In this document: one piece after another, positions 5,757 through 31,651 of the stretch
Position numbering within the stretch: position 1 is the stretch's first letter
Layout: each line of letters starts with the position of its first letter
Translations under genes and position numbers: made by a program
Notes under the pieces: model-generated
What the model was told of the DNA's origin: nothing
The model's database searches: none
The model's input: the letters and a program-made list of their open reading frames with translations, nothing else
Assembly: GCA_945901855.1 (NCBI GenBank)
Contig: CAMDLT010000007.1
Span: forward strand, 48,165 to 112,164
Direction: 5' to 3'
From: Asaia bogorensis
GTDB lineage: Bacteria > Pseudomonadota > Alphaproteobacteria > CACIAM-22H2
DNA: 64,000 bases

Positions 5757-7340
5757 ATGAGCTACGTTCGTTTGATTGCGGCCGGTATTGCCGCGGCAGG
5801 CCTGGCATTCGCCGGTCCCGCCGATGCCCAAGCGCCCAAGCGCGGCGGCACGCTGACCTTCGCGATTTCCGCCGAAACGCCGCACTACGACTGCCATGCG
5901 TCCGACACCTTCGCGACGCTGCATTTCGTCTCGCCCTTCTATTCGACGCTGATGCAGTTCGATCTGTCGAAATATCCGGGCGTCAAAGGCGACCTCGCCG
6001 AAAGCTGGACGGTCGCGCCCGATCTTATGAACTACACGTTCAAGCTGCGCTCGAACGCGGTCTTCCACGACGGCACGCCGCTGACCTCGGCCGACGTCAA
6101 GGCGACCTACGAGCGGCTGCGCGCGCCGCCCACGGGCATCGTATCCACGCGCATGGCGACGTTCGGCGACATCGACACGATCGAAACGCCCGACGCCACG
6201 ACGATCACCTTCAAGATGAAGGCGCCCAATCCCGCGATGATGGAACATTTCGCGAGCCCGTGGAATTGCGTCTATTCGGCGGCCAAGCTTGCGGCCGACG
6301 CCAATTTCCCGCGCACCAACATCATGGGGTCGGGCCCGTTCCGCTTCGGCGAGCACGTCAAGGGCAGCCACATGACGGGCACGCGCAACGAGCGCTATTT
6401 CGAACCCGGCAAGCCCTATCTGGACGGCCTGCGCGGCGTGTTCATGAGCCAGCCCGCCGCGATGCTGAACGCGCTGCAGGGCGGGCAGGTGATGGCCGAG
6501 TTCCGCGGCATCAGCCCGGCCGAGCGCGACCGCCTGGTGCAGGGCATGGGCGACAAGGTGCGCATCGAAGAGTCGGGCTGGACGCTCAATCTGCTCGTCG
6601 TCTTCAACACCGAGAAGAAGCCCTTCGACGACGTGCGCGTGCGCCGCGCGCTCAACATGGCGATCGACCGCCGTGCGGGCGCGCAGGGCTTGGCGCGCCA
6701 GGCGACGCTGCGCGATGTCGGCGGTCTGGTGCGTCCGGGTTCGCCCTTCGCGATCAAGGACGAGGATCTGGCCAAGGTGCCGGGCTACGGGCGCGACATT
6801 GCGGCCGCACGCGCCGAAGCGCGCCGTTTGCTGCAGGAAGCGGGCGTGCCTAACCTGGAGTTCGTGCTGCACAACCGCTCGACGCCGCAGCCCTACACGC
6901 CGGCCGGCATCTATCTGGTCGACCAATGGCGCCAAATCGGCGTCAAGGTCGAGCATCGCCAGTCGGAGACGTCGCCCTATCTTGCGGGCATGTCGAGCGG
7001 CAATTTCGACGTCGCGGTCGATTTCTCGAACCTGTTCATGGACGAACCCAGCCTGGGTCTGGCCAAGTACATCTCGCTCGATCGCGCGCCCGAAAACCGC
7101 TCGCGTTCGGTCGACCGCGAACTCGACCGGCTCTTCGATCTGCAAGCCCGCGAACGCGACCAGACCAAGCGCTACGATCTGATCCGCCAGTTCGAAGCGC
7201 GCATGTTCGACCAGGTCTACCAGGCGCCGCTGCTGTGGTGGCACCGCATCATCCCGACCAACAGGGCGGTGATGGGCTGGGAAATGTCGCCGAGCCACAA
7301 TCTCGGGCAGAACCTCGCCGGGGTCTGGCTGAACCAGTAA
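5757..7340 (+). CDS. ABC transporter substrate-binding protein, family 5 (peptide/nickel type)
   Basis: Signal peptide MSYVRLIAAGIAAAGLAFAGPADA followed by KRGGTLTFAISAETPHYDCHASDTF; ABC operon context. Confidence 0.9.
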   Translation: MSYVRLIAAGIAAAGLAFAGPADAQAPKRGGTLTFAISAETPHYDCHASDTFATLHFVSPFYSTLMQFDLSKYPGVKGDLAESWTVAPDLMNYTFKLRSNAVFHDGTPLTSADVKATYERLRAPPTGIVSTRMATFGDIDTIETPDATTITFKMKAPNPAMMEHFASPWNCVYSAAKLAADANFPRTNIMGSGPFRFGEHVKGSHMTGTRNERYFEPGKPYLDGLRGVFMSQPAAMLNALQGGQVMAEFRGISPAERDRLVQGMGDKVRIEESGWTLNLLVVFNTEKKPFDDVRVRRALNMAIDRRAGAQGLARQATLRDVGGLVRPGSPFAIKDEDLAKVPGYGRDIAAARAEARRLLQEAGVPNLEFVLHNRSTPQPYTPAGIYLVDQWRQIGVKVEHRQSETSPYLAGMSSGNFDVAVDFSNLFMDEPSLGLAKYISLDRAPENRSRSVDRELDRLFDLQARERDQTKRYDLIRQFEARMFDQVYQAPLLWWHRIIPTNRAVMGWEMSPSHNLGQNLAGVWLNQ

Positions 7341-24638: not shown

Positions 24639-24714
24639 GGGCGCTTAGCTCAGTTGGTAGAGCAGGTGACTCTTAATCACCGGGTCGTAGGTTCGAGCCC
24701 TACAGCGCCCACCA
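24639..24714 (+). tRNA. tRNA-Lys (CTT anticodon)
   Basis: GGGCGCT ... CTCTTAA anticodon loop ... GGTTCGAGCC T-arm ... AGCGCCC ACCA; 76-nt cloverleaf readable by eye. Confidence 0.95.
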
Positions 24715-24716
24715 CT
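24669..24716. repeat. att repeat (attL side), within tRNA-Lys
   Basis: actcttaatcaccgggtcgtaggttcgagccctacagcgcccaccact, identical to 31604..31651. Confidence 0.95.
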
Positions 24717-24751
24717 CCCGAAGCAATATCAATGGTTTAGCGAACATACTA

Positions 24752-24789
24752 TGCACCCGGAAAATCACCGGGTTTCTATGCACCCGTTA
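24752..24789 (+). repeat. Candidate integrase arm-type site pair, left end
   Basis: TGCACCCGGAAAATCACCGGGTTTCTATGCACCCGTTA; 31 of 38 positions match 31428..31465 by hand alignment. Confidence 0.7.
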
Positions 24790-24847
24790 GGGGCGATTTC
24801 GTCGGTTTTCGGGCTTTGGTGGATGCAATTAACCTATAGTTGTAAAT

Positions 24848-25123
24848 CTATGGATTATTCGAAGCCGTCGCCAATACTGCACGCCCAAAAGACAAAAGCG
24901 GGGCAGGTTTTCCCGCCGCCGCTTCGATCTTCGCACCGTGCCGAATGTTGGGCCTAGTGCTTGGGCTGGTCGAGCACCATGCTTTGCCGCCGCGTTTCGG
25001 CACAACGATAACCAGCTTGCGCGCGTGCGCTGGGATCGGTTCGCCAGCGAAGACGACGACGAATGAAGCCCCGTCCGTAGCCGCCTCAAGCTGGTCAAGC
25101 CGTCGATTAATGTCTCGTTTCAT
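24848..25123 (-). CDS. Small hypothetical protein, RLxxLE-type N-terminus (member 4 of cascade)
   Basis: MKRDINRRLDQLEAATDGASFVVVFAGEPIPAHARKLVIVVP; start overlaps preceding stop as ATGA. Confidence 0.6.
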   Translation of the reverse strand: MKRDINRRLDQLEAATDGASFVVVFAGEPIPAHARKLVIVVPKRGGKAWCSTSPSTRPNIRHGAKIEAAAGKPAPLLSFGRAVLATASNNP

Positions 25124-25311
25124 TCGATCCCCCGGCCTTCCGCGTTGCACCGTGCAAGCCATTCCTCGACCGTAGCGCAAGGACGCGGCATTAGCGCATA
25201 GGCGCCCCGGTGGTCGGGCGGGATCGTTTCGTCGGTATAGAAGACATAGCGCCGCCGTTTGGCCTTGCGGGTTTCGAGCGTCGCAAGCCGCCGATCTATG
25301 CCGCCGCTCAT
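25120..25311 (-). CDS. Small hypothetical protein, RLxxLE-type N-terminus (member 3)
   Basis: MSGGIDRRLATLETRKAKRRRYVFYTDETIPPDHRGAYALMP; ATGA overlap with upstream ORF. Confidence 0.6.
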   Translation of the reverse strand: MSGGIDRRLATLETRKAKRRRYVFYTDETIPPDHRGAYALMPRPCATVEEWLARCNAEGRGIE

Positions 25312-25508
25312 TGCAGCACCCCGAGTGCAGCACGCGGCACGCCGGTCACGACGAATAGCGCCGCTGCCATTTCACCCGGATGCGCCGCGCACCATGCTGC
25401 CCAACGTGTCGCGCACTCGGATTGCGTAGCGCCTGCGACCAGCACTTGCCGCGCCGATCCTGCCGCCTGTTCAAGTGTCGCAATGCGCTTATCAATGTCG
25501 CGTTTCAT
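25308..25508 (-). CDS. Small hypothetical protein, RLxxLE-type N-terminus (member 2)
   Basis: MKRDIDKRIATLEQAAGSARQVLVAGATQSE; start at internal M giving ATGA overlap. Confidence 0.6.
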   Translation of the reverse strand: MKRDIDKRIATLEQAAGSARQVLVAGATQSECATRWAAWCAAHPGEMAAALFVVTGVPRAALGVLQ

Positions 25509-25735
25509 GCCGCGTCCTTTCCAACGTGGGGAAACCATTCGATCTTGTCGTCGTCGAGTTCGCCGTTAGGCAGGCAAGGCAACGCGGCAAGTTCTTCGCG
25601 GGTGTATCCGCGCGTCATCAATGCCGGTTGACCGTGACCGCCTTTCACAAGCGACCGCAGAAACTCAATCCGCACGGGTTCCGGGGGCGTCAATTCCCGC
25701 TCGACCTTTTCCAGACGCTTTGCAAGTCCGCTCAT
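25505..25735 (-). CDS. Small hypothetical protein, RLxxLE-like N-terminus (member 1)
   Basis: MSGLAKRLEKVERELTPPEPVRIEFLRSLVKGG; ATGA overlap with DUF5681 gene. Confidence 0.6.
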   Translation of the reverse strand: MSGLAKRLEKVERELTPPEPVRIEFLRSLVKGGHGQPALMTRGYTREELAALPCLPNGELDDDKIEWFPHVGKDAA

Positions 25736-26190
25736 TGTTTGGTCCCTTGTGTGCTTTCGAGCCGCGCCAATCGCGCCTCTAGTTCGACTGTCTCAATCGC
25801 GCGGCGTTTCAATTCGAGCACGCCCGCAACCGCCGCCGCTTCGTCGGTCGTGATTTCGCCCTTGCCGGTGGCGTCAACGACTGCCGCCAATGCCACAAGG
25901 ATGTCCGGTGCTGTCTTGATCGCGGGAATATTGAGACTGACGGGCCGCCCCTTCCACACGGGCCATACGCGCGACAAGATGATTTCTGCCGCCTTTAAGT
26001 CGCCGCCCTTCGCCGCCGTCAGCACGTTGGCGAGCACGGCTTCCGCTTGCCCGTCCGCCATCGCGTCTAAGAGCAACGTCGCGGCATTGCGCGAGCCTTG
26101 CGGGCGTCCGGCTGGATTGCCGGATTGCCCCTTCTGAAAACCGGGTCGCCGTTGTTGCTCGCCTGAATTGGCAATGGTGTCATCGTCCAT
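25732..26190 (-). CDS. DUF5681 domain-containing protein
   Basis: RRPGFQKGQSGNPAGRPQGSRNAATLLLDAM matches the DUF5681 N-terminal signature. Confidence 0.8.
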   Translation of the reverse strand: MDDDTIANSGEQQRRPGFQKGQSGNPAGRPQGSRNAATLLLDAMADGQAEAVLANVLTAAKGGDLKAAEIILSRVWPVWKGRPVSLNIPAIKTAPDILVALAAVVDATGKGEITTDEAAAVAGVLELKRRAIETVELEARLARLESTQGTKQ

Positions 26191-26968
26191 GGGATGCCTC
26201 GCAATCGGGGAAACTCAAGCGTATGTCGTGATCGCCATTAGAAGCCCGTACACGCGCGTCTGTGTCGCGGGCTGGGTCGGTATGGGTTCCGGAGTTCGTC
26301 GAATCCTGCGCTTGCCCTAGCGCGAAGCCGGGCCGGTTTGAGAGGTGGGCAAGCGCGTACCAAGCAATCATCGACGCTTCTGCCCTGCCGTCGTCTTTGG
26401 CGCGTCGCCAGTTCCCGCCGTGCGCCGGTAGAAGCTGCGATGCGCGCAGCCGTGCGCCGTCTTTGCCTGCCGGGACGGCTAGAGTCCGCTTCCACGTCGC
26501 CGGGGTTACGAGTTCGACCGGCACCCGGAGTGCTGCCAGTACGCCAAGGATCGATCCGAAGCCGCGACCGAAAGCGAACATCGACGACACGCCTTGTCCG
26601 GGCATTGCGCCGACACGCTCGACGACTGCGAACGCGGGCCGGTGTTGCTCGACCAGCTCGACCATCGCCGCAAGGTCAAGGTCGCGCTTCGTCTTGCCGT
26701 TCCGCTCGATTGCCAGGGTCGGCATGTCTTCGACGTGTAGATCGCCGCCAAGGTCGAGCCATGCCAAGGCACCCGAAAATCCCGGATCGATACCGAGCAC
26801 CGCCGGTGCTTTGGGAGTGCCGAGCGTCCCGCATGCGTCCAGCATGGGGGCGCGCGTCGCGCTCCCCGGGGGGTTATAGGGGGGCGACACACGCGCATGC
26901 GCGACGGGGCGCGACGCATGCGCGACGGTATGCGCGACGCATGCGCGACGGGGGTCCAAATCGATCAT
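26180..26968 (-). CDS. RuvC-like (RNase H fold) Holliday junction nuclease family protein
   Basis: VLGIDPGFSGALAWLDLGG...FAVVERVGAMPGQGVSSMFAFGRGFGSILGVLAALRVPVELVTPATWKR; start may instead be M at 26845. Confidence 0.75.
   Translation of the reverse strand: MIDLDPRRACVAHTVAHASRPVAHARVSPPYNPPGSATRAPMLDACGTLGTPKAPAVLGIDPGFSGALAWLDLGGDLHVEDMPTLAIERNGKTKRDLDLAAMVELVEQHRPAFAVVERVGAMPGQGVSSMFAFGRGFGSILGVLAALRVPVELVTPATWKRTLAVPAGKDGARLRASQLLPAHGGNWRRAKDDGRAEASMIAWYALAHLSNRPGFALGQAQDSTNSGTHTDPARDTDARVRASNGDHDIRLSFPDCEASHGR
26897..26950 (-). repeat. Array of about 5 GTCGCGCAT-type units at roughly 11-bp spacing
   Basis: Plus-strand ATGCGCGACG (or near match) starts at 26897, 26907 (gggcgcgacg), 26918, 26930, 26941. 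Confidence 0.85.
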
Positions 26969-28101
26969 GCTGCCGCCCTCACAATCCGTTGACGGGGTTC
27001 TGACGGGCGTCCGTAAGCTTCGGTCTTGATCGCCCCTGCCTTAATCAGCCGGTGCATCGCGGCATCAAATGCAGCTTTGGTCACTCCCTCGCTTTCGGGG
27101 TGCTTGGCGAAGGCGTTCGGTGCGAAATTGGTCGCCGTGCGCGCCGCCGATACGTTGCTCCCTGTTGCCGCGTGCCAGTCCAGAAGCGCCAGGAATCTCT
27201 CATCGGCCTTCGCTGCCGCAAGTGCACGGTCAACCGGCCCAGCCGGTGCGCCAGTCCGCACGAATACCCCGCCTTCCCATCGTAGCTTGATGTCGTCGAG
27301 CCGCGCGCCACGGTTCGACTTGGCGTGCTTCAAGATGCGCGCATTGCGGTCGATGCTGCCGTCTTCGTCGTCGCTGGCCTTGGGCTTCGCGGCATATTCT
27401 AGGCTCAAGCGCGACCTAACCGAGCCGTTCCAAGCCGTGCTGCCTGAGTAGTTATCGCCGCTCGCCATGCCAGCTTTGGACGGATGCGCCAGCAGCACAA
27501 TCGCGCAATTGAGTTCGATGCCTAGACCGGTAAGTGCCCCGATGAATTGCCGTACGATCCGCCGCGTGCTTTCGTTGGCAGCATAAATGTCCGCCGCCGT
27601 ATCAAGCATGATCGCCACCGGGCGGAGGTCGCGCGCATGTTGTTCGATTTCTGCAAAGCGCGCGGTCAATCGCCCTTTCGATGCGCCCTCTTCTGCCTCG
27701 AATATTGCCGCGTCCAATCCGACGCCCACCACGATCCGCATGTTTTCGAGTTCGTCGAAGCGTCGCCCAAGCGCAGAAGTGATATCGTGAAGGCGCAATT
27801 GCAGTTCGTCGCCGTCGTCTTCGCATGCCAGCACAAGCACCGGGCCGGACTTGACGGGCATACCGAGCCACGTTTCGCCGCAGACCGCCGCCGTTGCGAG
27901 CTGTAGCGCCAAGTAGCTTTTGCCCGTGCCGCCGTCGCCCGAAAGCAGCGTCACCGCTTTAATCGGAATCAGGTCCGGCACAAAAAACTTGCGAACGGGC
28001 AGCGTTTGGCCCTGCCAATCCGCCGGGTTCAACACCGGCAGCGGGATCGATCGCGCTTCGTCGGTCGCGGGTTGCAAGCGGTGCACGTTTGGCGGTGTCA
28101 T
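26965..28101 (-). CDS. AAA family ATPase / RepA-like replicative helicase
   Basis: AVTLLSGDGGTGKSYLALQLATAAVCGETWLGMPVKSGPVLVLACEDDGDELQLRL; LDTAADIYAANE. Confidence 0.82.
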   Translation of the reverse strand: MTPPNVHRLQPATDEARSIPLPVLNPADWQGQTLPVRKFFVPDLIPIKAVTLLSGDGGTGKSYLALQLATAAVCGETWLGMPVKSGPVLVLACEDDGDELQLRLHDITSALGRRFDELENMRIVVGVGLDAAIFEAEEGASKGRLTARFAEIEQHARDLRPVAIMLDTAADIYAANESTRRIVRQFIGALTGLGIELNCAIVLLAHPSKAGMASGDNYSGSTAWNGSVRSRLSLEYAAKPKASDDEDGSIDRNARILKHAKSNRGARLDDIKLRWEGGVFVRTGAPAGPVDRALAAAKADERFLALLDWHAATGSNVSAARTATNFAPNAFAKHPESEGVTKAAFDAAMHRLIKAGAIKTEAYGRPSEPRQRIVRAAA

Positions 28102-29042
28102 GCCGCACCTGCCATGCCGCGCGCCTGGGCGACATCGTTCCAATCGCCGTACTCGGCAGGCGGTGCGACAATCTCGACCGCCTTGCCTTCGCCATTGAAT
28201 TTCACGCGGGCGCGTTCGGCAGCGTCTTCGCCGGGTTCGCCGTTGTCGCGGAACACGATCACGCGGCGCACACTGTCAGGCAGCGCGATTGCGTCGAAGC
28301 GGCGCCCAAGTGCCGCCCATACCGGCACGCCGTGGAGTTCCATCGCGCTTAGGCCGGTTTCGACGCCTTCCGCAAGCCCGAGCGTGTCGGTTGCCTCGCC
28401 AAGCCTGACGGCACCCGCGCCCAGCGGCGCAAGCGTCATCTTGGGCTGCCGCACGCCAGCTTTGCCGCACCCGTCTTGTCGAATGTAGATGCGCTGGATT
28501 GCCGATATGCTGCCGTCCGGCGCCTGCGCCGCCGCAACAAGGGCCGGTAGGATCAGACCTGTCGGCTTGTGCTGTAATGCGCCGCGATACCGGATCGTCG
28601 CCGGGACCGGCAGATTGACCGCTCGAAACAAAATATATTTTGCGCCCAGCGTCCCCGCGATGGGCTTTGCCTGATTCCAGATTTCGAGTGCTGCGCGTGT
28701 CGCCCCTTCGTCGATGGCGGTCGTCTTGGCCGGTGCCGATACCGGGCGCATAGCCTGCCCATATCCCAGCCATGCACGGGCTTCGTCGCGGGCGTCGGCT
28801 TTGGACAGTCGACGGGCTGCTTCGATCAAGTCGAGCAAGTCGCCGAATTGACCGGTCGCAGCGTCAGACCATTTTCCAGCGCGTGCGCCGTGCCGATGGA
28901 TAAACAGACTGTCGCCGCGTTCGCCGTCAATCGATCCAATCGACCAATAGTTCCCGCACCTGCGCGCCAGCGGCAGTAAGGTCGGAATTAGATCGTCAAC
29001 GCGCAAGGCGAGTTCGTGCGCGATGTCGGATGCGCTATTCAT
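28098..29042 (-). CDS. Toprim-domain / primase-like protein
   Basis: GNYWSIGSIDGERGDSLFIHRHGARAGKWSDAATGQFGDLLDLI; RVIVFRDNGEPGEDAAERARVKF Toprim-like; start at MNSASD. Confidence 0.75.
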   Translation of the reverse strand: MNSASDIAHELALRVDDLIPTLLPLARRCGNYWSIGSIDGERGDSLFIHRHGARAGKWSDAATGQFGDLLDLIEAARRLSKADARDEARAWLGYGQAMRPVSAPAKTTAIDEGATRAALEIWNQAKPIAGTLGAKYILFRAVNLPVPATIRYRGALQHKPTGLILPALVAAAQAPDGSISAIQRIYIRQDGCGKAGVRQPKMTLAPLGAGAVRLGEATDTLGLAEGVETGLSAMELHGVPVWAALGRRFDAIALPDSVRRVIVFRDNGEPGEDAAERARVKFNGEGKAVEIVAPPAEYGDWNDVAQARGMAGAA

Positions 29043-29163
29043 TCGCAGCCTGTCCTTTCGCTTTGGCGTTTGCCAGTGCGCGCTCGACGATGCGCGCGAC
29101 AACGGCGCCAATCGGCTTGAATGGTGCGGGCGGTGGGGTCTGGGGTTTGCGCTCAAGCTGCAT
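29035..29163 (-). CDS. Small hypothetical protein (42 aa)
   Basis: MQLERKPQTPPPAPFKPIGAVVARIVERALANAKAKGQAANE overlapping both neighbouring genes; weak evidence. Confidence 0.35.
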   Translation of the reverse strand: MQLERKPQTPPPAPFKPIGAVVARIVERALANAKAKGQAANE

Positions 29164-29395
29164 TGGCGCTGGCCTCCGACGTGTTCGTGCGGGGCGCCGA
29201 TGTCCGGGCTTCTGCCCACGCAATCAAGTCGGCGGGTGAATACAATGCGCGCCGTCCGTAGAGCCGATACACGGGGCCGCCGCCAAGGCAGGCGAGTTTT
29301 TCGAGGGTACGCTGCGCAGTCGGAAAGCCGCGCTCTGTCAAAAACTGAGCCGCGTCACGTCGCCCAAAATAGTCGGGGCCAGTCTGTTCGGTCAT
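29153..29395 (-). CDS. HTH (MerR/AlpA-type) DNA-binding protein, candidate excisionase/regulator
   Basis: YFGRRDAAQFLTERGFPTAQRTLEKLACLGGGPVYRLYGRRALYSPADLIAWAEAR, typical helix_turn_helix_17/AlpA pattern. Confidence 0.78.
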   Translation of the reverse strand: MTEQTGPDYFGRRDAAQFLTERGFPTAQRTLEKLACLGGGPVYRLYGRRALYSPADLIAWAEARTSAPRTNTSEASANAA

Positions 29396-29487
29396 CGTTG
29401 AGCATCCTTTCGCATGGTGCGCGTTGGCGTGTGCCGGTGCGCTATTGTTGCGAAAGGTGCCCTTTCGGATTTTCGTTTAACCCATGG

Positions 29488-30168
29488 CTATCGCGAAAAT
29501 CGCTCGGGCTGTAGCAGCATGAAACGCTTCAATTCAGCAATTACGACATCTTCGCTGCCGTCGCGCACGGCGTCGGCAAAAAGGCTGTAGGTCAGATTGC
29601 TCTCAAGCTCGACGCGATTTTTTGCGTAGTTTTCGATGTTCGTCTGCGTCAAGTTTACCGCCCTTGCAACGCGCGCACTCGCCTCGGGCGCAGGAACGCC
29701 GAGCACGATCAATGCAGCACGCGCGGCAAGAATTGCAGCTTTTCGGTCTTCGATGGTCGTTGCCGTTTCGCTCGGCTTTCCGCCGATGGTTGCCGGGTTT
29801 AGGACATCCGAAACGATGCCCTTGCGAAGGTCGAGCAACCCGCCTGCAATTGCCACCAGCGGGGCAATGTCATCGTTCGATAGATGCGACTTTGAGCCGT
29901 CGCTGGGCGATAGCAACAGAACTCGGATGGCCTCAATTTGTAGAATTGCCGCGTCACGTCGCCGGATAGCATCGGGGGCTTTTCGGTAGAGTTCGCCAGC
30001 AAGCCGAATCGCAACAATCGGATCGGCGCCAATGCGCTTATCTAGGTCGTCAATCATGCGCCCTCCGCTGGGCGTCCGCACAATGGCAACGGGGCAGGCG
30101 GTGCGGTTCCGCTTTTCGATCCGTCGATCTAGCCCCGTTGTTTTCGATGTAGTGTCTCGCGCCTGCAA
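29488..30168 (-). CDS. Hypothetical protein of integrative element
   Basis: 226-aa ORF between integrase and HTH gene; likely start at internal MIDDLDKRIGADP. Confidence 0.6.
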   Translation of the reverse strand: MQARDTTSKTTGLDRRIEKRNRTACPVAIVRTPSGGRMIDDLDKRIGADPIVAIRLAGELYRKAPDAIRRRDAAILQIEAIRVLLLSPSDGSKSHLSNDDIAPLVAIAGGLLDLRKGIVSDVLNPATIGGKPSETATTIEDRKAAILAARAALIVLGVPAPEASARVARAVNLTQTNIENYAKNRVELESNLTYSLFADAVRDGSEDVVIAELKRFMLLQPERFSR

Positions 30169-30171
30169 TTT

Positions 30172-31425
30172 CTAGATCGCGCCGCCGCTGTTCGCAGATT
30201 TCTTAGCCTTAAGTTCGACGACATTGCCGGTCGGCGGGTCCAAGATTCTGTCGATAACGGCGCCCAGCTTTTCAAGAGCGTCGCGCTTTTCGGCTAGATA
30301 GTCGTGCCGGTCGTAGGTCCGCTTGATGCCCTGCACAACGTGTCCTAGGACGTGCTCGGCAACGTCGCCAGACACGCCAGCGCCAGCCATTAGCGACCGC
30401 GCCGTGCGCCGCAGATCGTGCAAGCGCCAATTCGGTATCTCTCCTTGCCCGGCCTTCAAGCGTGCCGCATTGATCGCGGTATCGAGCATTTCCTTCGTCT
30501 TGGAAAATCCGCTGTAGGGCGTCTTGCCGTTCGTCGAGAAAACAAACTCGCACCCGTCGCGCGGTGGCTGCGACTTGATTAGGTCGAGCACGGCAGGGGG
30601 TAGGGGCACTTTGTGCGCCCGCTTCGTCTTGTAAACGTCAGCCGGGACCGTCAGCACGTCGCCGTCGATCCATGCCCATTTCATGCGGGCGATTTCGTCG
30701 CGCCGTTGCCCCGTCAGTAGCAGCACCCGCACCAGCGCCCGGAATGTCTCGTTTGTCGATTCCGTTGCCGCCCACAATTGGCGGATTTCGCTGGGCGATA
30801 GCACGCGGTCACGTTCGCGGTCTTTGGGCTTAGTGCGGGCCATGCCGCGAATGATGGGGCTGGTAAATGCTTCGTTGCGTGTCATGGCCCAGTTGAAGGC
30901 TTTGCGGACATGGGCAAGCACTCGATCCGCCGCAACCGGGCCGCGTTCGTCGTCGATCTTGTCGAGCATCGCCGTGATATCCGACCGCCGCAGTTCGTAG
31001 ATCGACCGTCCGCCAATTATGGGTTTTACGACACGTTCAAAAATTCCCTCGATATCGTCGCCCGAGCGTAGCTTTGCCTCGCCCCGGACGTAGCGCTTGA
31101 CGAAGGTGTCGAGCAAATGGGCGACCGTATCCTTGCCCTTGGATTTCTCGACGATGATCCGCTTGAGTTCGAGGGGGTTTGCCTCGCGTGCAACGTCGCC
31201 CATTTGGGCTAGGGCCTTCGTGCGGGCCTGTTCCGGCGTCAATTCGCCCCAAGTACCAAGCCCGATCCAATGCCGCTTGTGGGTCGTCTTATCCCTATAG
31301 CGAAGGCCAAACGACACCACACCGGACGGCAGGCACCTAGCGACGAAGCCCTTGCTATCGGTATCGAACAGGATGTCGCCCGGCTTCATTGCTTCGACGG
31401 CGCGAACGCCAATTTTCTTCTTCAT
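30172..31425 (-). CDS. int: Tyrosine recombinase/integrase (phage type, DUF4102-like N-terminus)
   Basis: MKKKIGVRAVEAMKPGDILFDTDSKGFVARCLPSGVVSFGLRYR; LLTGQRRDEIARMKW; LHDLRRTARSLMAGAGVSGDVAEHVLGHVVQGIKRTYDRHDY (R-HxxR-H-Y catalytic set). Confidence 0.95.
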   Translation of the reverse strand: MKKKIGVRAVEAMKPGDILFDTDSKGFVARCLPSGVVSFGLRYRDKTTHKRHWIGLGTWGELTPEQARTKALAQMGDVAREANPLELKRIIVEKSKGKDTVAHLLDTFVKRYVRGEAKLRSGDDIEGIFERVVKPIIGGRSIYELRRSDITAMLDKIDDERGPVAADRVLAHVRKAFNWAMTRNEAFTSPIIRGMARTKPKDRERDRVLSPSEIRQLWAATESTNETFRALVRVLLLTGQRRDEIARMKWAWIDGDVLTVPADVYKTKRAHKVPLPPAVLDLIKSQPPRDGCEFVFSTNGKTPYSGFSKTKEMLDTAINAARLKAGQGEIPNWRLHDLRRTARSLMAGAGVSGDVAEHVLGHVVQGIKRTYDRHDYLAEKRDALEKLGAVIDRILDPPTGNVVELKAKKSANSGGAI

Positions 31426-31427
31426 AG

Positions 31428-31472
31428 TGCACCCATAAAATCAGAGGGTTCTTGTGCACCCGTTATGCACCC
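31428..31472 (+). repeat. Candidate integrase arm-type sites, right end (3 TGCACCC copies)
   Basis: TGCACCC at 31428, 31455 and 31466; 31428..31465 aligns with 24752..24789. Confidence 0.7.
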
Positions 31473-31603
31473 ACTAAGGGGGAAACTCAAGCGTATTCAC
31501 GGGCAAGCCAAGAAAATGACAATTAGCTTTAAAATTGGCGTTATGTGGGGGTGTGGAAGCTGGAAGGTAATTCAATAAAATTCTGGCGTAGGTGCCGCAT
31601 ATA

Positions 31604-31651
31604 ACTCTTAATCACCGGGTCGTAGGTTCGAGCCCTACAGCGCCCACCACT
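31604..31651. repeat. att repeat (attR side), partial tRNA-Lys
   Basis: 48-bp exact copy of 24669..24716; lacks 5' half of tRNA. Confidence 0.95.

Follow-up and report, generated by a model that had tools for sequence, protein, structure and literature searches.

In this study, we examined a 64,000-nucleotide stretch of the draft genome of Asaia bogorensis (82 contigs; assembly GCA_945901855.1, contig CAMDLT010000007.1, positions 48,165-112,164; hereafter the window) and describe a 6,983-bp element integrated at its tRNA-Lys gene (24669-31651). Our findings lean slightly toward a model where this element is an intact, active or recently active satellite, similar to phage-inducible chromosomal islands (PICI) and phage-inducible chromosomal minimalist islands (PICMI) but of an undescribed alphaproteobacterial type, which would be packaged by way of its DUF5681 protein. 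More tentatively, we propose an undescribed family of tRNA-targeting alphaproteobacterial satellites, minimal at 6-7 kb and ordered int - X - AlpA - replication - DUF5681/coiled-coil (cc), in which DUF5681 would be a new satellite small terminase subunit (TerS) and the int-alpA RNA, present in part of the family, would regulate the integrase/AlpA excision switch.

Anatomy of the Element

The element is delimited by an exact 48-bp direct repeat, formed by the last 46 nt of tRNA-Lys plus 2 nt and copied without change at the far end (table 1). All 12 open reading frames (ORFs) run along the minus strand; int adjoins the right attachment site (att) and the small ORFs adjoin the tRNA. Every frame is open and the operon is tightly packed. 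A preliminary description of this DNA, made by a model from the letters and a list of ORFs, had recognized the repeats, the integrase at one end and the approximately 12 minus-strand genes, and its gene order agrees with the Pfam and PHROG matches: int, an orphan, an AlpA/HTH_17-like helix-turn-helix (HTH) gene, orf62, a DUF7146 + Toprim_3 primase, an AAA_25 RepA-like gene, a phrog_1770 RuvC-like gene, DUF5681, and four small ORFs. Its statement that virion and transfer genes are missing held as well: among the element proteins, hidden Markov model (HMM) searches of Pfam, PHROG, and NCBIfam gave no match to capsid, portal, large terminase subunit (TerL), head-tail, or tail proteins, and none to a relaxase proper or type IV secretion system (T4SS), an origin of transfer not being searched for. 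PADLOC returned only two marginal matches on the element and no defence cargo. The int-alpA RNA, the revised start of the orphan, the candidate arm sites, the iterons, and the 18-bp repeat are additions to that description.

Table 1. Features of the element and its integration site, in window coordinates
Feature	Position	Strand	Support
tRNA-Lys (anticodon CTT), integration target	24639-24714	+	ARAGORN; Rfam RF00005
attL, 48-bp direct repeat, 3' part of tRNA-Lys	24669-24716	+	
Two candidate integrase arm sites, RTGCACCC (24751, 24778), just inside attL	24751-24785	+	
cc4, from internal ATG	24848-25123	-	
cc3	25120-25311	-	
cc2	25308-25508	-	
cc1, R..LE coiled-coil ORF, 4-nt ATGA overlap with DUF5681	25505-25735	-	
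DUF5681 protein, candidate small-terminase-like packaging specificity factor	25732-26190	-	PF18932
RuvC-like resolvase, likely start near 26848 (listed ORF 26180-26968)	26180-26848	-	phrog_1770, E=5e-29
18-bp repeat ATACGCTTGAGTTTCCCC, second exact copy, 17 bp upstream of DUF5681	26207-26224		
Iterons CGCATGCGCGACG, three exact copies, candidate origin directly downstream of repA	26894-26950	+	Repeat search
repA-like AAA_25 helicase/initiator	26965-28143	-	Pfam/PHROG
Primase, DUF7146 + Toprim_3	28098-29042	-	Pfam; phrog_510 DNA primase
orf62, between alpA and prim, overlapping both annotated ORFs	29035-29223	-	Open frame only
alpA-like HTH regulator/excisionase	29153-29395	-	HTH_17, E=0.0037; phrog_66, E=0.023
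Int-adjacent orphan ORF, probably 189 aa from ATG; position of PICMI iolg	29488-30057	-	Sequence context
int-alpA RNA (RF02996), full-length match directly behind int	30076-30139	-	Rfam covariance model
int, tyrosine integrase, Arm-DNA-bind_3 + Phage_integrase	30172-31425	-	Pfam/PHROG
Three candidate integrase arm sites, RTGCACCC (31427, 31454, 31465), just inside attR	31427-31472	+	
18-bp repeat ATACGCTTGAGTTTCCCC, ~54 bp upstream of int	31479-31496	-	Repeat search
attR, exact 48-bp copy	31604-31651	+	

DUF5681 and Phage Packaging

The link to phage packaging runs through DUF5681. The preliminary description placed such proteins near phage terminase genes, and viral contigs retrieved with a DUF5681 motif are in agreement: in 37 of 39, the gene immediately preceding TerL encodes DUF5681, a count that is not one of independent cases since the contigs are mutually related to varying degrees. 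One of the two remaining cases is truncated by the end of its contig, and for one contig a Pfam match confirmed that the neighboring gene is TerL. In these phages TerL begins approximately 100-150 nt before the DUF5681 stop, so that the genes overlap and DUF5681 takes the small-terminase position. Aligned with HHalign, the profile of the element-type protein matches the phage type (phrog_8771) over residues 3-92 (P 98%, E 1.8e-13), and a 44%-identical element-type relative is found 1.5 kb upstream of TerL in locus L078. The window gene itself has no TerL beside it: element-type proteins carry a distinct C-terminal half (an ELExRLxxLE helix) and are followed by a cc gene, not by TerL. DUF5681 had no TerS family match in Pfam or PHROGs, nor a PDB match in a profile search. 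We infer from the homology and position of the phage type that DUF5681 may act as a satellite TerS.

The ATGA overlap of DUF5681 with a small R..LE gene is shared by the window, L087, L090, L150, L151, and L161, while in L086/L088 the gene overlapped in this manner encodes a 171-aa protein. Of the "four small paralogs" announced by the preliminary description, four small ORFs do exist, but what they have in common is limited to an N-terminal R..LE coiled-coil motif; together with orf62 they gave no meaningful match in Pfam, PHROG, or NCBIfam. A different role for the DUF5681-cc pair, as DNA-binding maintenance or regulatory proteins, would fit an autonomous integrative replicon, able to excise and replicate but moving between cells by other means (relaxase in trans, generalized or jumbo-phage transduction, vesicles). 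The element holds a full integration and replication set, the pair occurs outside islands in L087 and DUF5681 alone does likewise in genome G384, and a jumbo phage has been shown to carry an AlpA-bearing island (PMC12595487). Yet, no relaxase or recognized transfer gene was matched in the element, and its DUF5681 is homologous to a phage protein encoded upstream of TerL; we consider such a replicon an improbable explanation.

Related Islands

Five element-type DUF5681 loci have an integrase nearby (the window, L086, L088, L090, and L151). In all of them int and DUF5681 are 3.4-4.0 kb apart with replication genes in between, and an AlpA-like gene is present; a sixth locus, L162, has a divergent DUF5681 at 4.7 kb from an integrase. 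L090 is a complete island of 5.8 kb at tRNA-Arg, bounded by a 15-bp att repeat (531-545 / 6299-6313), with a clear PF05930 AlpA, no recognized virion genes, and the same plan and orientation relative to the tRNA as the window element. L151 runs int-alpA-prim-DUF3987-x-DUF5681-cc and continues with TPR/caspase and McrBC genes, and in L150 a TIR protein is encoded close to the DUF5681 cassette; such genes are typical satellite/defence cargo.

These loci also bear on whether the element is a stripped prophage, that is, the early region of a temperate phage (integration, AlpA, replication, and the start of packaging) which has lost its late genes and is passive or occasionally rescued by related phages. 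Relatives of its RepA and primase do occur in phages or by terminase genes (the RepA of phage WO; L023, next to TerS/TerL-like genes; L022 of genome G145; L025 of Azospirillum), L078 joins the 44%-identical DUF5681 relative to TerL, and the L086/L088 islands of genome G127 run into possibly virion-like genes before their contigs end. On the other hand, the element shows no pseudogenes and no late-gene debris, its att is perfect over 48 bp, its operon is tight, and its ATGA-coupled DUF5681-cc pair sits at the att end, as in the independent, complete short island L090. Decay from a larger prophage, named by the preliminary description as the finding that would overturn a satellite, is accordingly disfavored, and we regard this origin as unlikely.

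In L022 (G145:C7), an island at tRNA-Lys(TTT) combines int, an AlpA-like gene, primase/RepA, a Terminase_2 TerS, and TerL, with no recognized head or tail genes; TerL, 2.3 kb further on, rules it out as a TerS-only satellite. The int-alpA or DUF5681 islands L197, L198, L206, and L086/L088 each include a single long protein that by eye resembles a tail fibre or internal virion protein, no capsid genes being seen; the L086/L088 protein had no PHROG match.

Comparison with Known Satellites

PICMI of Vibrionaceae average 6.7 kb and are ordered int - int-adjacent gene (iolg) - alpA - small gene - prim, with int, iolg, and alpA needed for excision and prim for replication; the published search model is the co-location of int, alpA, and prim, and the stated hallmark is integration next to fis; a virulent phage sets off their excision and replication, and they are packaged as concatemers (PMC10803314). 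Our element, at approximately 7 kb, has the order int - orphan - alpA - orf62 - prim and no capsid-remodelling gene, and its int, alpA, and prim are co-located, the alpA call being based on weak HMM scores, position, and BLAST similarity to L151. It differs in its alphaproteobacterial host, additional repA, ruvC, DUF5681, and cc genes, and int-alpA RNA, and it is not a PICMI because its att is tRNA-Lys rather than a site next to fis. In Gram-negative PICI, a pri-rep module is followed by ori (PMC6092414). The element likewise joins int, an AlpA regulator (weakly matched; the PICI regulator is of AlpA or MerR type), pri-rep then a candidate origin, and a possible TerS gene; in contrast, its int is co-directional with the remaining genes, and the TerS-like gene is DUF5681 and no recognized PICI TerS. 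PICI further have exclusive genes, interfere with their helper, and are induced by phage; no homologues of PICI-exclusive, interference, or cos genes were recognized in the element. P4-like satellites encode a single alpha protein (a primase-helicase fusion), Sid/Psu/Delta/Ogr, and an AlpA/Vis-like protein, and target a tRNA. The element shares broadly the same integrase type, the tRNA target, an AlpA/Vis-like protein, and primase and helicase functions, but the latter reside in a separate Toprim primase and AAA_25 RepA, and the lack of any alpha or Sid/Psu/Delta match in Pfam and PHROG excludes it from the P4 group. Capsid, portal, and head-tail genes, which would place it with capsid-forming PICI or complete prophages, are absent from its matches, as are the relaxase or T4SS of integrative conjugative or mobilizable elements among Pfam, PHROG, and NCBIfam matches. 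If a TerS is defined by its gene lying directly upstream of TerL, the definition applies to the phage-type DUF5681 homologue only (the 37 contigs above). Finally, RF02996 in Rfam defines an RNA only; here, it is tied to an att-bounded island with replication genes and DUF5681. The element would work like a minimal PICI/PICMI, yet is a member of neither as defined.

The Integrase-AlpA Module

The integrase matches PF13356, PF22022, PF00589, and phrog_1. Between int and alpA lies the int-alpA RNA, whose score of 53.8 bits exceeds the gathering threshold of 35.8. The orphan could begin at TTG 30168 (226 aa, the length given in the preliminary description) or at ATG 30057 behind GGAGGG; since the RNA occupies the gap behind int, the latter is likelier and the protein probably has 189 aa. 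That it belongs to no recognized family was confirmed in Pfam and PHROGs, the best NCBIfam match reaching only E=0.063, and its single-sequence AF2 model is poor and mostly helical (predicted local distance difference test, pLDDT, 48). Peptide patterns retrieved no relatives of the orphan, primase, or integrase in viral contigs. The AlpA-like protein is similar (BLAST 4e-6) to an ORF sited between int and prim in L151, and orf62 may not be a real gene. RF02996 was present in 16 of 385 genomes of the class and in none of 14 controls. In most of the fetched loci the integrase ends 70-95 nt ahead of the RNA, and the AlpA-like gene, where detected, is usually 0.7-1.7 kb downstream; in one locus, L207, RuvC and a primase/RepA pair are present as well. 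RF02996 flags int-RNA-orphan-AlpA modules more widely in Alphaproteobacteria. It was not found in L086, L088, L090, or L151, and is therefore not universal among DUF5681 islands.

Weighing the Satellite Model

In the model that we favor, the integrase, with the help of arm sites at either end, would recombine the 48-bp core in tRNA-Lys. Helper infection or induction would lead AlpA and the orphan, as iolg in PICMI, to turn on excision, a switch possibly tuned by the int-alpA RNA. Primase and RepA would copy the circle or a concatemer from the iteron region, RuvC would resolve junctions, and DUF5681 (with cc1), small-terminase-like, would direct the large terminase of the helper to island DNA; helper particles would be filled with this DNA and carry it into a new cell. 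A possible candidate helper resides in the same genome, where contig C24 (L168:8400-19132) holds a podovirus-type prophage with a phrog_332 head-tail adaptor, a phrog_3437 major head protein, a tail tubular protein, a tail fibre, and TerL. A search for a packaging site common to element and prophage gave only short matches, nothing convincing.

Several observations weigh against this model. Excision, induction, and packaging are here predictions from sequence. The DUF5681 homology to the phage type is limited to the N-terminal ~90 residues, and its AlphaFold2 model is of low confidence (pLDDT 68), with no PDB match by Foldseek at E<=0.001. DUF5681 occurs approximately 10 times in the 2.4-Mb genome G384 (L152-L160, L163, L164), between apparent housekeeping genes and without an integrase, and genome G100 (L087), of the same bacterial family, has it outside any island, coupled to an R..LE gene; thus, DUF5681 alone is not diagnostic of an island or of packaging. 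The matches of the AlpA-like protein fall below cut-offs, no capsid-redirection or interference gene was recognized in the element, and known relatives of the replication module occur in phages. The element was not found in 22 other genomes of its order, and a whole-element DNA search of phage and plasmid collections matched only the tRNA/att portion or tiny pieces, which makes it a single instance at the DNA level. The tRNA-Lys check put forward in the preliminary description gave a partial answer: congeners keep the mrdA-tRNA-Lys synteny and hold other sequence at the site, but their right flank is located elsewhere, hence no empty site can be read cleanly. Overall, the satellite reading of that description is upheld in its anatomy (PICMI-like order, int-alpA RNA, candidate arm sites and origin, DUF5681 homology, L090, and no virion genes), whereas helper dependence, its core, is a prediction.

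AlpA-bearing satellites known by experiment, in the literature on the systems compared, are gammaproteobacterial, and the satellite lifestyle is documented mainly outside Alphaproteobacteria. If the islands are satellites, Alphaproteobacteria would own a compact satellite family, with the DUF5681-cc pair and, in some, the int-alpA RNA as a signature usable in genome scans. Two orphan annotations, RF02996 and DUF5681, would gain testable functions, in island excision control and the choice of DNA for packaging, respectively.

Ends, Shared Repeats, and Replication Genes

The RTGCACCC motif has five copies in the window, all on the plus strand and all just inside the att sites, and these are plausible integrase arm sites. 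The motif was picked post hoc, and some twice-repeated 7-mer is common to 2.5% of random segment pairs, so its confinement to both ends is the stronger argument. The 18-bp repeat upstream of int and DUF5681, whose two sites were reproduced in none of 100 shuffles, suggests shared control of both genes, possibly by an operator or promoter.

The iteron region, a candidate replication origin, is predicted to form a stable DNA hairpin (z=-2.7). The conserved part of RuvC starts around residue 53-57, and its ORF probably starts near 26848, the first ~40 listed codons being iteron region. In the primase, the Toprim region, RDNGEPGEDAAERA, is without the usual second Asp of the DxD motif, as in a similar variant in L023, and its activity may be unusual; a TIGR02760 TraI match spans only the C-terminal primase-like part of TraI. 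RepA has relatives of 33-38% identity throughout the class, in phages, Wolbachia phage WO among them, and in other integrase-bearing loci. On an Azospirillum brasilense plasmid (L025; NZ_CP059450, 9136-16195), a short portal-like ORF and a protease/capsid-like gene flank a RepA relative together with HTH genes, an arrangement that looks like an element inserted into prophage late genes (compare helper-embedded satellites; PMC10111431).

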